A DNA stretch of 64,000 nucleotides. Origin: Williamsia deligens. Lineage in GTDB: Bacteria; Actinomycetota; Actinomycetes; Mycobacteriales; Mycobacteriaceae. The position numbers and the translations under genes were made by a program. Below, piece by piece: positions 53,557-57,110 of the stretch (positions within the stretch are counted from its first letter, which is position 1; each line of letters begins with the position of its first letter). The stretch covers positions 1,031,137-1,095,136 of the forward strand of contig NZ_JAMTCI010000001.1 in assembly GCF_024171765.1 (NCBI RefSeq), in the 5' to 3' direction. The notes beneath the pieces were generated by a model, which had not been told where the DNA came from, ran no database searches, and saw only the letters and a program-made list of their open reading frames with translations.

Positions 53557-54501
53557 TCAGCTGACGATGTCCTTGCGGCCGAACCACCACCACGACGCCC
53601 CGAACAGGATCGCCGCGTAGATCAGTGAGATCCCCACACCGCGCGCCATGTCCTCCCACACCACACTCGGGTTGAGGGCGTCCAGCCACGCGAATTGATA
53701 ATGGGTGGGCAGGAACTGGCGGTACGGGTCCAGCGCCGAGATCGAGTCGAGGATGTTCGACAGGATCACCAGCATCGTCGCGCCACCGACCGCACCCAGT
53801 GGTGCGTCCGTCACCACGCTCAGCAGGAACGCGAAGCCCGCGACCACCAGCGACTGGATCAGGGTGTAGCCCACCACGATCGCCAACCGTTGCAGGGTCT
53901 CGGCACTCGTGAACTCACCGCCGAGTGGCGACCTCGCCGGACCCCACCCGAAGAAGAGTCCCCCGACGACGTACGCCCACACCGGCAGCAGGATCAGCAC
54001 GACCGCACTCGACGCGAGTCCGACGATCAGCTTCTGCCGCAACAGGTGTGACCGTCGGACCGGGATCACCAGCAGATACCGCAGCGACGCCCACCCGGCC
54101 TCACTCGCCACCGTGTCGCCGCAGAACAGTGCCACGAGCACGGTGAGGAGGAACGAGCCGGCGGCGAACTCGGTGAACAGCGCGAAATTCGCGCCGCCCG
54201 CGGTCGCCAGCGAGTACAGGGCCGACGTCTGACGTCCGCCGCCCGAGTCCGACCCACCGGCCGTCGACGGGTCGTCGGAGCTGAGCGAGAAGGCGATCGC
54301 GATGATCGGCGGCAGGATCACCAGCAGCACCGCGGCCACCTGCGTGCGCCGTCGACGGAGCTGTCGGATCGTCTCGACGCGCAGGCCCAGGGTCCGGCGC
54401 GGGTGCAGATCCACCGGTTGCACGGCACCGAGTCCGTCGAGGCGATCGTGCACACCCTTACGGGTGGCCGCCACCCTCGCGGTGGGCTCCTGGTCGCTCA
54501 T
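53557..54501 (-). CDS. ABC-2 type permease partner of the fusion ATPase
   Basis: A 314-residue membrane protein of the ABC-2 permease type with six helices. A long N-terminal cytosolic region ends RRRRTQVAAVLLVILPPIIAIAF (first helix). A periplasmic loop of about 55 residues is Ser/Gly/Asp-rich. Later segments include FCGDTVASEAGWASLRYLLVIPVRRSHLL, typical of ABC-2 exporters. It overlaps the upstream fusion gene by four bases (ATGA) and is certainly its partner. Exported substrate unknown. Confidence 0.82.
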   Translation of the reverse strand: MSDQEPTARVAATRKGVHDRLDGLGAVQPVDLHPRRTLGLRVETIRQLRRRRTQVAAVLLVILPPIIAIAFSLSSDDPSTAGGSDSGGGRQTSALYSLATAGGANFALFTEFAAGSFLLTVLVALFCGDTVASEAGWASLRYLLVIPVRRSHLLRQKLIVGLASSAVVLILLPVWAYVVGGLFFGWGPARSPLGGEFTSAETLQRLAIVVGYTLIQSLVVAGFAFLLSVVTDAPLGAVGGATMLVILSNILDSISALDPYRQFLPTHYQFAWLDALNPSVVWEDMARGVGISLIYAAILFGASWWWFGRKDIVS

Positions 54502-57110
54502 CGCGACTCCTCTCCGATCAGGTCGAGGAAGGCCTCTTCGAGGTGACGACGGGACTCGACGACGTCCGAGGCGATCCCCGCCTCCGACAGGACACGTTGT
54601 GCCGCATCCACATCCGCCACCGACAGCGTCGACGACGCCGCACCGGCGAGATCGGCGACCGACCCCGTGGTGATGAGCCGACCCTTGTGCATCACGACGA
54701 CGTGGCTACAGGTCTGCTCCACCTCCGACAGCAGGTGGCTGGACACCACGACGGTGCGTCCGGTTGCGGCGTAGCGCCGCATGACCTCGCGCATCTCGGC
54801 GATCTGCGGCGGGTCGAGACCGTTGGTGGGCTCGTCGAGGATGAGCAGCTCCGGCAGTCCGAGCATCGCCTGCGCGATGGCCAGCCGCTGGCGCATGCCC
54901 TGGCTGTACTTGCGGACCTTGCGGTCGACCGAGGCCCCCAGGCCGGCGATCTCGAGAGCGGTCTCGACGTCGGCCTCCTCCCGCGGACGGCCTGTCGCGG
55001 CCCAGAACAGGTCGAGGTTCTCGCGGCCCGAGAGATGCGGCAGCAGCCCGGGCCCCTCGATGAACGCCCCGACGCGGGCGAGGACGTCGGAGCCGGGGCC
55101 GACGGTCTCGCCGAACAGGCGGATGGACCCCTCCGTCGGGGCGATCAGGCCGACCATCATGCGCAGCACCGTCGTCTTGCCGGCGCCGTTGGGGCCGAGC
55201 AGACCGACGACCTGTCCACGCTCGACCGAGAACGACACCCCGTCGACGGCGCGGTAGGAGTCGCCGTACTCCTTCACCAGGGAGTCCACGACGATCGGCG
55301 TGGTATCACCGAGGGCGTCGGCGCGGTCGCGACGGTTGCGTCGCCACCCGGCCAGCACGATGCCCGCGATGAGCACGAGGATCGCGACCACGCCGGCGAC
55401 CGGCCATCCCCACGGGAACGGTGTCGACGTCGCACGTCCGGACAGCGTGGTGAGCGCGAGCGTGGGCTGATCCAGGGCGATCGAGTAGGTGCGGGCGTCG
55501 TCGGGCAGTCGGTAGCCGAGGTCGGTCGTCGAGACCTGCACGGCCAGTCGGTGTCCGCCGGCGACCGTGCGCACCACGGTGGGCAGCGGCACGGTCACCG
55601 CGCGGGGCTGTCCCGGGGTGAGTCCGGTCAGCCGCACCGGCGTCACGAGACCCGACGGCTGGGTGCGCTGGCCGTCGGGGGCGACGTCGACCAGGGACAC
55701 GAACAGCGTCGCGTCGGTCGTGGTGCGAGGCGTCACGCGCAGACGCACCGACGACGACCCACCGACCAGGGTGTCCGACGACAGCGGCGCGGACACGAAC
55801 CCGCCCGCCTGGCCGGGTATCGCCGACAGGGCCGATCCGCCGGTCACCGACGCCGCCGTCGCGAGCAGGCTGCCGATGCCGGGGACGGCGGTGATGGCGG
55901 TCGGGGTGCCACCCGCGGGGGCGTTGATCGTCTGCGCGGGTCCGAGAAGTGGCAGCTGCGTGGTCTTCTGCCCGTCGGCGAGCGACGACGCGGTCAGCTG
56001 ACGCGGCGTGGACCGGCCCGTCTGCGTCGAGAGCGCGGCATCGGGCACGGACGCGGCGAAGCCGTCGCGCGGGGTCTGCCGGTCCGTCAGCACCTCGGTG
56101 AACCAATCACGCGCCTGCGCCGTCGGGTCGCCGCCGGGCTGATCGTGGCCGCCGGAGCGCCACACCATCCGCACGGGCGCACCCGTCGCCCGGATCCCCG
56201 CGGCGTTGCGCACGGCCTGGTCCAGCGGGAACAGCGAGTCCTGCTGTCCCTGGCTCAGCAGCGTGGGGACGGTGATCCTCGACAGGACCGACGCCGGGCT
56301 CGACGCCTCCATGAGTCTGTTCAGCTCGGCGGTGGGCGCCCCCGCCGCGGCCGACGCCTGGTAGGCGGCACACACGTCGGGCGCGAACGTCCCACACCCG
56401 GAGGCCGTCCCGGTCCGCGCGGCCTGGGAGAAGAGCTGGCCCGCCCATCCCTGCTTGAAGACCTCGTCGGTGCCCTGCCCCGCGGTGGGGAACAGCGCCT
56501 GCGACAACCGGTTCCACGTGATGTCGGCGGCGACCGCGTCGACGCGGCGGTCGTAGGCGGCGGTGAGCAGCGCGAGCGCGCCGCCGTACGACGCTCCGGC
56601 CACACCCACCCGGGGACTGCCGTCGGCGTCCTCGCGCACCTGCGGCATCCCGGCGAGCACGTCGATCATGCGGCGGGCGTCGGCCACCTCGTAGTCGGGG
56701 CTGTCGAGGTGGATCAGTCCGCCCGACGCACCGAACCCGCGCGCGGAGTAGGTGATGACGACGAAACCGCGCCCCGCGAGATCCCGTGCCTGCGCGCGGA
56801 GATCGTCCTTGGACCCGCCGAATCCGTGGGCCAGCACCACCGCCGGCGCCGGTGTCGTCGTCGCGGGCAGGAACAGCGAGGTGTCGAGCGAGACCGGCGT
56901 CGACCCCTCCGGCACACCGGCCACGCTCATCGCCTTCTCGGTGACGCCCGCGTCGTCGTCACCGGAGGTCGAGACCACGGCCGCGACGATGGCGACGATC
57001 AGGACCACGAGAAGCGCCACCGCGACCCACAGGCGGCGACCGCGCGTCAGGGTGCCTACCCGAGACCTGAGACTGGAGATGACAGTGCCTTTCCGGCTGG
57101 GCGTACCCAC
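54498..57110 (-). CDS. Fusion: membrane-anchored extracellular hydrolase plus ABC ATPase
   Basis: An 870-residue protein with an unusual order. Residues 27-47 form a membrane helix; 60-345 an alpha/beta hydrolase of the S15/CocE type (Ser174 in GASYGG, Asp291, His322 in SGGHDQ); about 350-550 a beta-rich CocE-like C-domain; 569-588 a second membrane helix with a basic border; 605-870 a complete ABC ATPase (Walker A GPNGAGKTT at 639, signature YSQGM at 735, Walker B LLILDE at 755, His792). Topology predicts the hydrolase outside and the ATPase inside. The permease follows with an ATGA overlap. The protein may couple export to hydrolysis of the product or of a wall substrate; this is inference. 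GTG start at 57110. Confidence 0.85.
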   Translation of the reverse strand: MGTPSRKGTVISSLRSRVGTLTRGRRLWVAVALLVVLIVAIVAAVVSTSGDDDAGVTEKAMSVAGVPEGSTPVSLDTSLFLPATTTPAPAVVLAHGFGGSKDDLRAQARDLAGRGFVVITYSARGFGASGGLIHLDSPDYEVADARRMIDVLAGMPQVREDADGSPRVGVAGASYGGALALLTAAYDRRVDAVAADITWNRLSQALFPTAGQGTDEVFKQGWAGQLFSQAARTGTASGCGTFAPDVCAAYQASAAAGAPTAELNRLMEASSPASVLSRITVPTLLSQGQQDSLFPLDQAVRNAAGIRATGAPVRMVWRSGGHDQPGGDPTAQARDWFTEVLTDRQTPRDGFAASVPDAALSTQTGRSTPRQLTASSLADGQKTTQLPLLGPAQTINAPAGGTPTAITAVPGIGSLLATAASVTGGSALSAIPGQAGGFVSAPLSSDTLVGGSSSVRLRVTPRTTTDATLFVSLVDVAPDGQRTQPSGLVTPVRLTGLTPGQPRAVTVPLPTVVRTVAGGHRLAVQVSTTDLGYRLPDDARTYSIALDQPTLALTTLSGRATSTPFPWGWPVAGVVAILVLIAGIVLAGWRRNRRDRADALGDTTPIVVDSLVKEYGDSYRAVDGVSFSVERGQVVGLLGPNGAGKTTVLRMMVGLIAPTEGSIRLFGETVGPGSDVLARVGAFIEGPGLLPHLSGRENLDLFWAATGRPREEADVETALEIAGLGASVDRKVRKYSQGMRQRLAIAQAMLGLPELLILDEPTNGLDPPQIAEMREVMRRYAATGRTVVVSSHLLSEVEQTCSHVVVMHKGRLITTGSVADLAGAASSTLSVADVDAAQRVLSEAGIASDVVESRRHLEEAFLDLIGEESR

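Follow-up and report, generated by a model that had tools for sequence, protein, structure and literature searches.

How can a hydrolase that appears to lie outside the cell belong to the same polypeptide as an ATPase that would work inside it, and what would such a protein do? This question is raised by a gene on the reverse strand of a 64,000-nucleotide stretch of the Williamsia deligens genome (contig NZ_JAMTCI010000001.1; hereafter, the window). The gene (54498..57110) encodes an 870-residue fusion protein composed, in order, of a signal anchor, an alpha/beta hydrolase, a PepX_C-like domain, a transmembrane (TM) helix, and an ATP-binding cassette (ABC) ATPase. This domain order recurs in other genomes, the active sites are conserved, and an ABC-2 permease is the constant partner. 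The reading that we prefer, with a likelihood that we place slightly below even, is that the unit exports a molecule and that the tethered hydrolase cleaves it on emergence.

The fusion gene starts with a GTG codon at 57110, the first in-frame start past the upstream stop, before which no obvious ribosome-binding site was seen by eye. Hydropathy analysis detected two helices only: TM1, the signal anchor (residues 29–47; 56970..57026; hydropathy 3.27), and TM2 (residues 571–589; 55344..55400), which is followed by Arg590. Between them, Pfam placed the catalytic part of the hydrolase at residues 73–322 (56145..56894), where Abhydrolase_1 (residues 89–304; 1.4e-18) and Peptidase_S15 (residues 73–322; 2.3e-18) scored about equally, and matched PepX_C (4.2e-12) to residues 437–539 of the C-terminal domain (55494..55802). 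The catalytic part carries Ser174, Asp291, and His322, together with lid cysteines 239 and 247. The ABC ATPase region (residues 599–870; 54498..55316) matched ABC_tran (PF00005; residues 623–763; 1.3e-31) and contains Walker A (639–646), the signature (736–742), Walker B (755–760), and the H-switch (792). All these features lie on the reverse strand, which an earlier note on the gene had left unspecified. The open reading frame, Pfam matches, and hydropathy thus bear out an earlier sequence-only reading of the window, which had described a single protein of 870 residues with these five elements.

A frameshift or an assembly error joining two genes could produce such an architecture, and the sequence-only reading had named a sequencing error of this kind as grounds for refutation; those grounds fell away. 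We give this explanation practically no chance: nothing was found in its favour, and the frame was open in every one of the eight genus genomes, W. deligens among them, and in many assemblies besides. The fusion is real and not an artefact, since it is carried by 8/8 genus genomes, by 52 of 201 family genomes, and by others across the phylum. The seven congeners shared 67–83% identity with the window's protein across the N-terminal 603 residues. In the sample of the window's family, 61 of 201 genomes matched at E 1e-60; 52 matches spanned hydrolase and ATPase, including the eight of the genus, and nine covered the ATPase only. The class sample yielded matches at 1e-70 in 76 of 296 genomes, of which 72 looked fused, one held the ATPase only (G281), two held the hydrolase only (G232 and G249), and one was split across two contigs (G459); among the 72, the listed piece of G361 comprised the C-domain and ATPase only, and the frame of G433 was just 700 residues long. 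Of the 296 genomes sampled across the phylum, 23 matched, three of them with the ATPase only, and 10 of the other 20 came from outside the class. Seven of these outside-class matches were opened (L280–L286), and all held the fusion with an adjoining permease gene. The three samples overlap, and the sorting into fused and ATPase-only matches was a hand count of match rows. A contig scan with generic ATPase motifs gave 80 loci, of which L086–L088 were recognised and used as fusions. The domain order that the sequence-only reading had proposed seeking in other Mycobacteriales was therefore found there, and the class and phylum samples showed that it is not confined to them. The fusion–permease pair was also seen on a 386 kb plasmid of Tsukamurella tyrosinosolvens (L265; NZ_LR134452.1), whose RefSeq record lists an 'alpha/beta fold hydrolase' and, overlapping it by four bases, an 'ABC transporter permease'.

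Both active sites were conserved. We extracted 58 fusions and set aside two whose translation was interrupted by a stop; in the remaining 56, Ser174, Tyr175, Asp291, His322, Lys645, Glu685, Gln737, Asp759, Glu760, and His792 were invariant. The catalytic triad therefore stands intact at the positions previously assigned to it, and the ATPase is complete as had been claimed, with Walker A, Walker B, the signature, and the H-switch invariant in 56/56. A second set of 59 loci with flanking sequence, which partly overlaps the genomes of the alignment, retained Asp, His, Lys645, and Glu760 throughout, and Ser in 58 of them. In the remaining one, L215 (fusion 7731–10133), the residues surrounding the catalytic Ser are missing from the open frame, the sign of either a damaged gene or a misassembly. 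The triad, Lys645, and Glu760 were also kept in eight more fusions (8/8), seven of them from other classes; for the outside-class rows, crude Asp/His patterns missed many cases and were replaced by alignment. Against the seven congeners, the ratio of nonsynonymous to synonymous substitution rates (dN/dS) was 0.13–0.29 for the catalytic part, 0.14–0.30 for the C-domain, and 0.04–0.16 for the ATPase, with dS up to 0.98. Separate translation of the ATPase from an internal start was considered and rejected: 48 of 56 fusions had no in-frame ATG, the only codon scanned, within the 45 codons before the ATPase.

The sequence-only reading had placed the hydrolase outside and the ATPase inside the membrane. 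As a prediction, this topology is supported by the charge bias, the conserved Cys pair, and the secretion-type starts, among them those of several stand-alone relatives described below. In the window's protein, the 15 residues on the N-terminal side of TM1 carry a net charge of +5 and the 15 on its C-terminal side −3. TM1 was found in 53 of the 56 proteins, with the N side more positive in every one (53/53), and TM2 in all 56, with the C side more positive in 49. Cys239 and Cys247 (C-x7-C) were present in 56/56 fusions, 37 of which have three cysteines in total, and both were kept in 58 of the 59 flanked loci. The remaining locus, L205 (fusion 7803–10445), lost the two cysteines together while its triad stayed intact, as fits a pair of disulfide partners. 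The N-termini of some fusions resemble Sec signals, and L064 has a lipobox (judged by eye and pattern). No such protein was recognised in the accessible part of the Streptomyces coelicolor glycoproteome report (PMC6593405), which might have held an experimental hint of topology.

The permease gene (53557..54501, reverse strand) encodes 314 residues with six predicted TM helices and matched ABC2_membrane_2 (residues 46–312; 4.6e-12), with PF12679 and PF12730 both above their cut-offs. It shares 54498–54501 with the fusion gene, which confirms the four-base overlap reported for the window. A permease homologue lay directly downstream on the same strand in 59/59 flanked loci, with exactly this overlap (−4) in 53 and a start between −14 and +13 in the other six. 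By hydropathy, 46 of these permeases have six helices and 13 have five. Fusion and permease distances were correlated (r 0.90; 0/2000 permutations as high), although common ancestry alone would yield much of this. The ATPase motifs and the ABC-2 permease partner are together those of an ABC-2 exporter, and ATP-driven export is predicted. The best NCBIfam scores of the ATPase were likewise for exporter subfamilies, TIGR03740 and DrrA, both under cut-off.

The unit might instead be no transporter at all: in an FtsEX-like manner, ATP binding or hydrolysis inside would switch or position the hydrolase outside. The covalent tie between ATPase and hydrolase through one helix would suit such transmembrane control, as would Arg590, which adjoins TM2 on the predicted cytosolic side and was invariant in 56/56 fusions, and the accessible part of a study of FtsEX describes that complex as a signal transmitter (PMC11627006). 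The permease, however, matched ABC2_membrane models only, and no FtsX-type domain (FtsEX/MacB, type VII) was found by Pfam at E 0.001; units of a helix-bearing ATPase and a permease without any hydrolase, described below, also argue against this explanation, to which we assign a chance of about one in five.

The hydrolase had been called S15/CocE-type, and this label held in part. Peptidase_S15 and PepX_C models matched all 18 members of set A1 (E 0.001) and scored above cut-off in the window's protein, which also has the G-x-S-Y motif that CocE and PepX have in common. Its solved relatives were of another kind in the best 60 of 119 and best 60 of 254 matches: the nearest was the lipase 8yzo (3.1e-17), aligned over both hydrolase domains, followed by alpha/beta hydrolases, an MHETase-type enzyme, and polyester hydrolases, with neither PepX nor CocE among them. 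Since the closest solved sequences are of the lipase/esterase type, an ester or lipid appears at least as likely a substrate as an X-Pro peptide.

Relatives without one or the other half bear on the history of the fusion. Stand-alone hydrolase relatives kept the triad in 16/16 and the Cys pair in 12/16 cases, and several start with signal-like stretches. One of these lies in the genome of W. deligens itself (L225:7977-9779, forward strand, contig C1), with a signal-like N-terminus, the same triad, and C-x7-C; it and L221 share 35% and 39% identity, respectively, with the window's hydrolase. On the trees, 41 fused and 16 stand-alone hydrolases were separated by two label changes against a shuffle mean of 14.1, with fused L208 and L284 falling outside the main fused group, and the 41 fused and 39 other ATPases by two against 26.9 in shuffles. 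The only non-fused row within the fused ATPases was L223, a helix-bearing ATPase without hydrolase, and its placement fits a secondary hydrolase loss. As fused hydrolases and fused ATPases each form nearly one group, the link between them probably has a single origin or a few origins and was then kept over a phylum. This persistence argues against the idea that the transporter simply anchors a surface hydrolase in the membrane and that their activities are unrelated, as does the fact that TM1 by itself would suffice for anchoring. The stand-alone relatives, one of them in the same genome, are nonetheless compatible with a mere tether, as is a hydrolase dN 1.8–5 times that of the ATPase; roughly one chance in eight seems to us a reasonable estimate for it.

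Homologous units without hydrolase took several forms. L302, L303, and L304 are conventional ATPase–permease pairs with neither TM helix nor hydrolase, and L301 has a homologous ATPase with an ambiguous start position. Clear N-terminal helices (hydropathy 2.23–2.76) precede the ATPase in L298:3731-4864, L300:3941-5743, and L223:7878-8897, and a borderline one (1.43) in L299:4013-4807; a permease was present in all four. The ATPase and permease of L300 are encoded by a single 600-residue open frame. No hydrolase relative was found at E 1e-10 in three of these four genomes; the fourth, G022, also has a full fusion. Seven further ATPase-only matches (L291–L297) had no helix and no recognised permease beside them.

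In a FastTree phylogeny, the fusions of the genus clustered with their counterparts from a second family, f19 (support 100), and those of the window's own family were scattered over three positions. This pattern suggests that the fusion–permease unit was transferred between lineages, with paralogy as the alternative. The f19 members (L186, L187, L188, and L209) were the closest to the window's unit outside the genus, at 56–59% identity for the fusion and 59–61% for the permease.

We propose the following mechanism for the preferred reading, export with cleavage on emergence. Two permeases and two fusions would assemble into an exporter-type complex, a 2:2 stoichiometry that we infer from the ABC-2 class, so that each complex would hold a pair of ATPase domains in the cytoplasm and expose a pair of serine hydrolases at the outer face, a single membrane helix connecting every hydrolase with its own ATPase. 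The permease would move an amphiphilic molecule, perhaps an ester, a lipid-like compound, or an acyl-peptide, out of the cytoplasm or the inner leaflet, and on its emergence the molecule would be handed over to the hydrolase and cleaved, being thereby trapped outside or trimmed. Four points weigh against this reading. The charge bias of TM2 fails in 7/56 proteins. The transporter can do without the hydrolase, because units of helix-bearing ATPase and permease without one exist. Incoming molecules, or ones that reside in the membrane, could be the targets of the hydrolase irrespective of transport. Beyond the fusion–permease pair, none of the best 45 clusters of neighbouring genes extended to more than 11 of the 59 loci. 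A stricter version, in which the ATPase cycle is relayed through the single covalent helix and each extruded substrate is cleaved in the same cycle, appears doubtful, with perhaps one chance in four; to our knowledge, such an extrude-and-cut mechanism is known for no ABC exporter.

Neighbouring genes were sorted into families by greedy BLAST clustering, with flanks of mostly ~8 kb. Reading the substrate from gene context was rejected on account of the limit of 11/59 loci given above. In L176 and L181, from the window's family, the neighbours are what we take to be RpsA, CoaE, and UvrB, and those of L199, a Streptomyces-type locus, presumably belong to inositol catabolism. In the window, a gene for an Arr-type rifampin ADP-ribosyltransferase (53011-53526, reverse strand) lies 30 bp downstream of the permease gene on the same strand. 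It adjoins the unit in three of the eight genus genomes (window, L166, and L167), lies ~4.7 kb away from the stop codon of the fusion in L168, and is absent from one of the eight; a rifampicin link was rejected on this distribution. On the other side, a VKOR-family gene (58242-58988, forward strand) stands beside a PRISE-like reductase gene (57181-58323, reverse strand), and both are present too in L166 and L167. VKOR proteins help in disulfide formation.

These surroundings bear on self-protection, in which the unit would pull an amphiphilic antimicrobial from the membrane, as LanFEG and BcrAB do, and destroy it outside. TIGR03740, the NCBIfam model that scored best with the ATPase (181 bits; cut-off, 310), describes a lantibiotic-protection subunit, and the patchy spread, the grouping of the genus copies with those of another family, and the Tsukamurella plasmid copy would all suit this role. 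No biosynthetic or regulatory partner was found alongside across groups in the best 45 clusters of the 59 flanked loci, however, Arr is adjacent in just three of eight genus genomes, and the unit also occurs in three genomes of 1.3–1.4 Mb; we consider self-protection unlikely, about on a par with transmembrane control. A Q-loop with Glu instead of Gln, a hallmark of LanF, was tried as an indicator and rejected as not specific, being present in 40/41 fused and 39/46 other ATPases.

Comparison with known systems places the unit near, yet apart from, several of them. DrrA/BcrA/LanF-type exporters share its ATPase and permease families and two-gene order, but the window's ATPase additionally bears an N-terminal membrane helix and a predicted extracytoplasmic hydrolase. 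PCAT exporters likewise combine a hydrolase with an ABC ATPase in one chain; their C39 peptidase is a cytosolic cysteine peptidase, and the window's protein, unlike them, gave no C39 match (Pfam, E 0.001). Stand-alone alpha/beta hydrolases with a PepX_C-like domain (L225 and L221) have both regions, the triad, and C-x7-C, and differ by a signal-like N-terminus and the lack of an ATPase. FtsEX with its peptidoglycan hydrolases (PMC11627006) also sets an ABC ATPase inside against a hydrolase outside, but with separate proteins, an FtsX-type permease, and muralytic enzymes. According to the part of PMC3924187 available to us, TCDB 3.A.1.145 is an ABC-2 permease fused to an M1 aminopeptidase, another naturally occurring union of a hydrolase with one component of an ABC-2 exporter. 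The half fused there is the permease, joined to an M1 metallopeptidase; in the window it is the ATPase, joined to a serine hydrolase. Pfam gave no M1 match in the fusion or the permease, the latter being unfused at 314 residues. No description of the fusion was found among the best-ranked open-access titles and abstract openings, and one public record names the fusion product just 'alpha/beta fold hydrolase', yet the unit recurs across Actinomycetota. Composed of known Pfam domains, the unit looks like a little-studied type of ABC-2 exporter to which a predicted extracytoplasmic hydrolase is covalently tethered. It differs from the peptidase–ABC fusions above both by the half that is fused and by the predicted side of the enzyme. 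Because its ABC ATPase is linked covalently across the membrane to an enzyme, it lends itself to experiment, with the natural hydrolase-free versions as controls.

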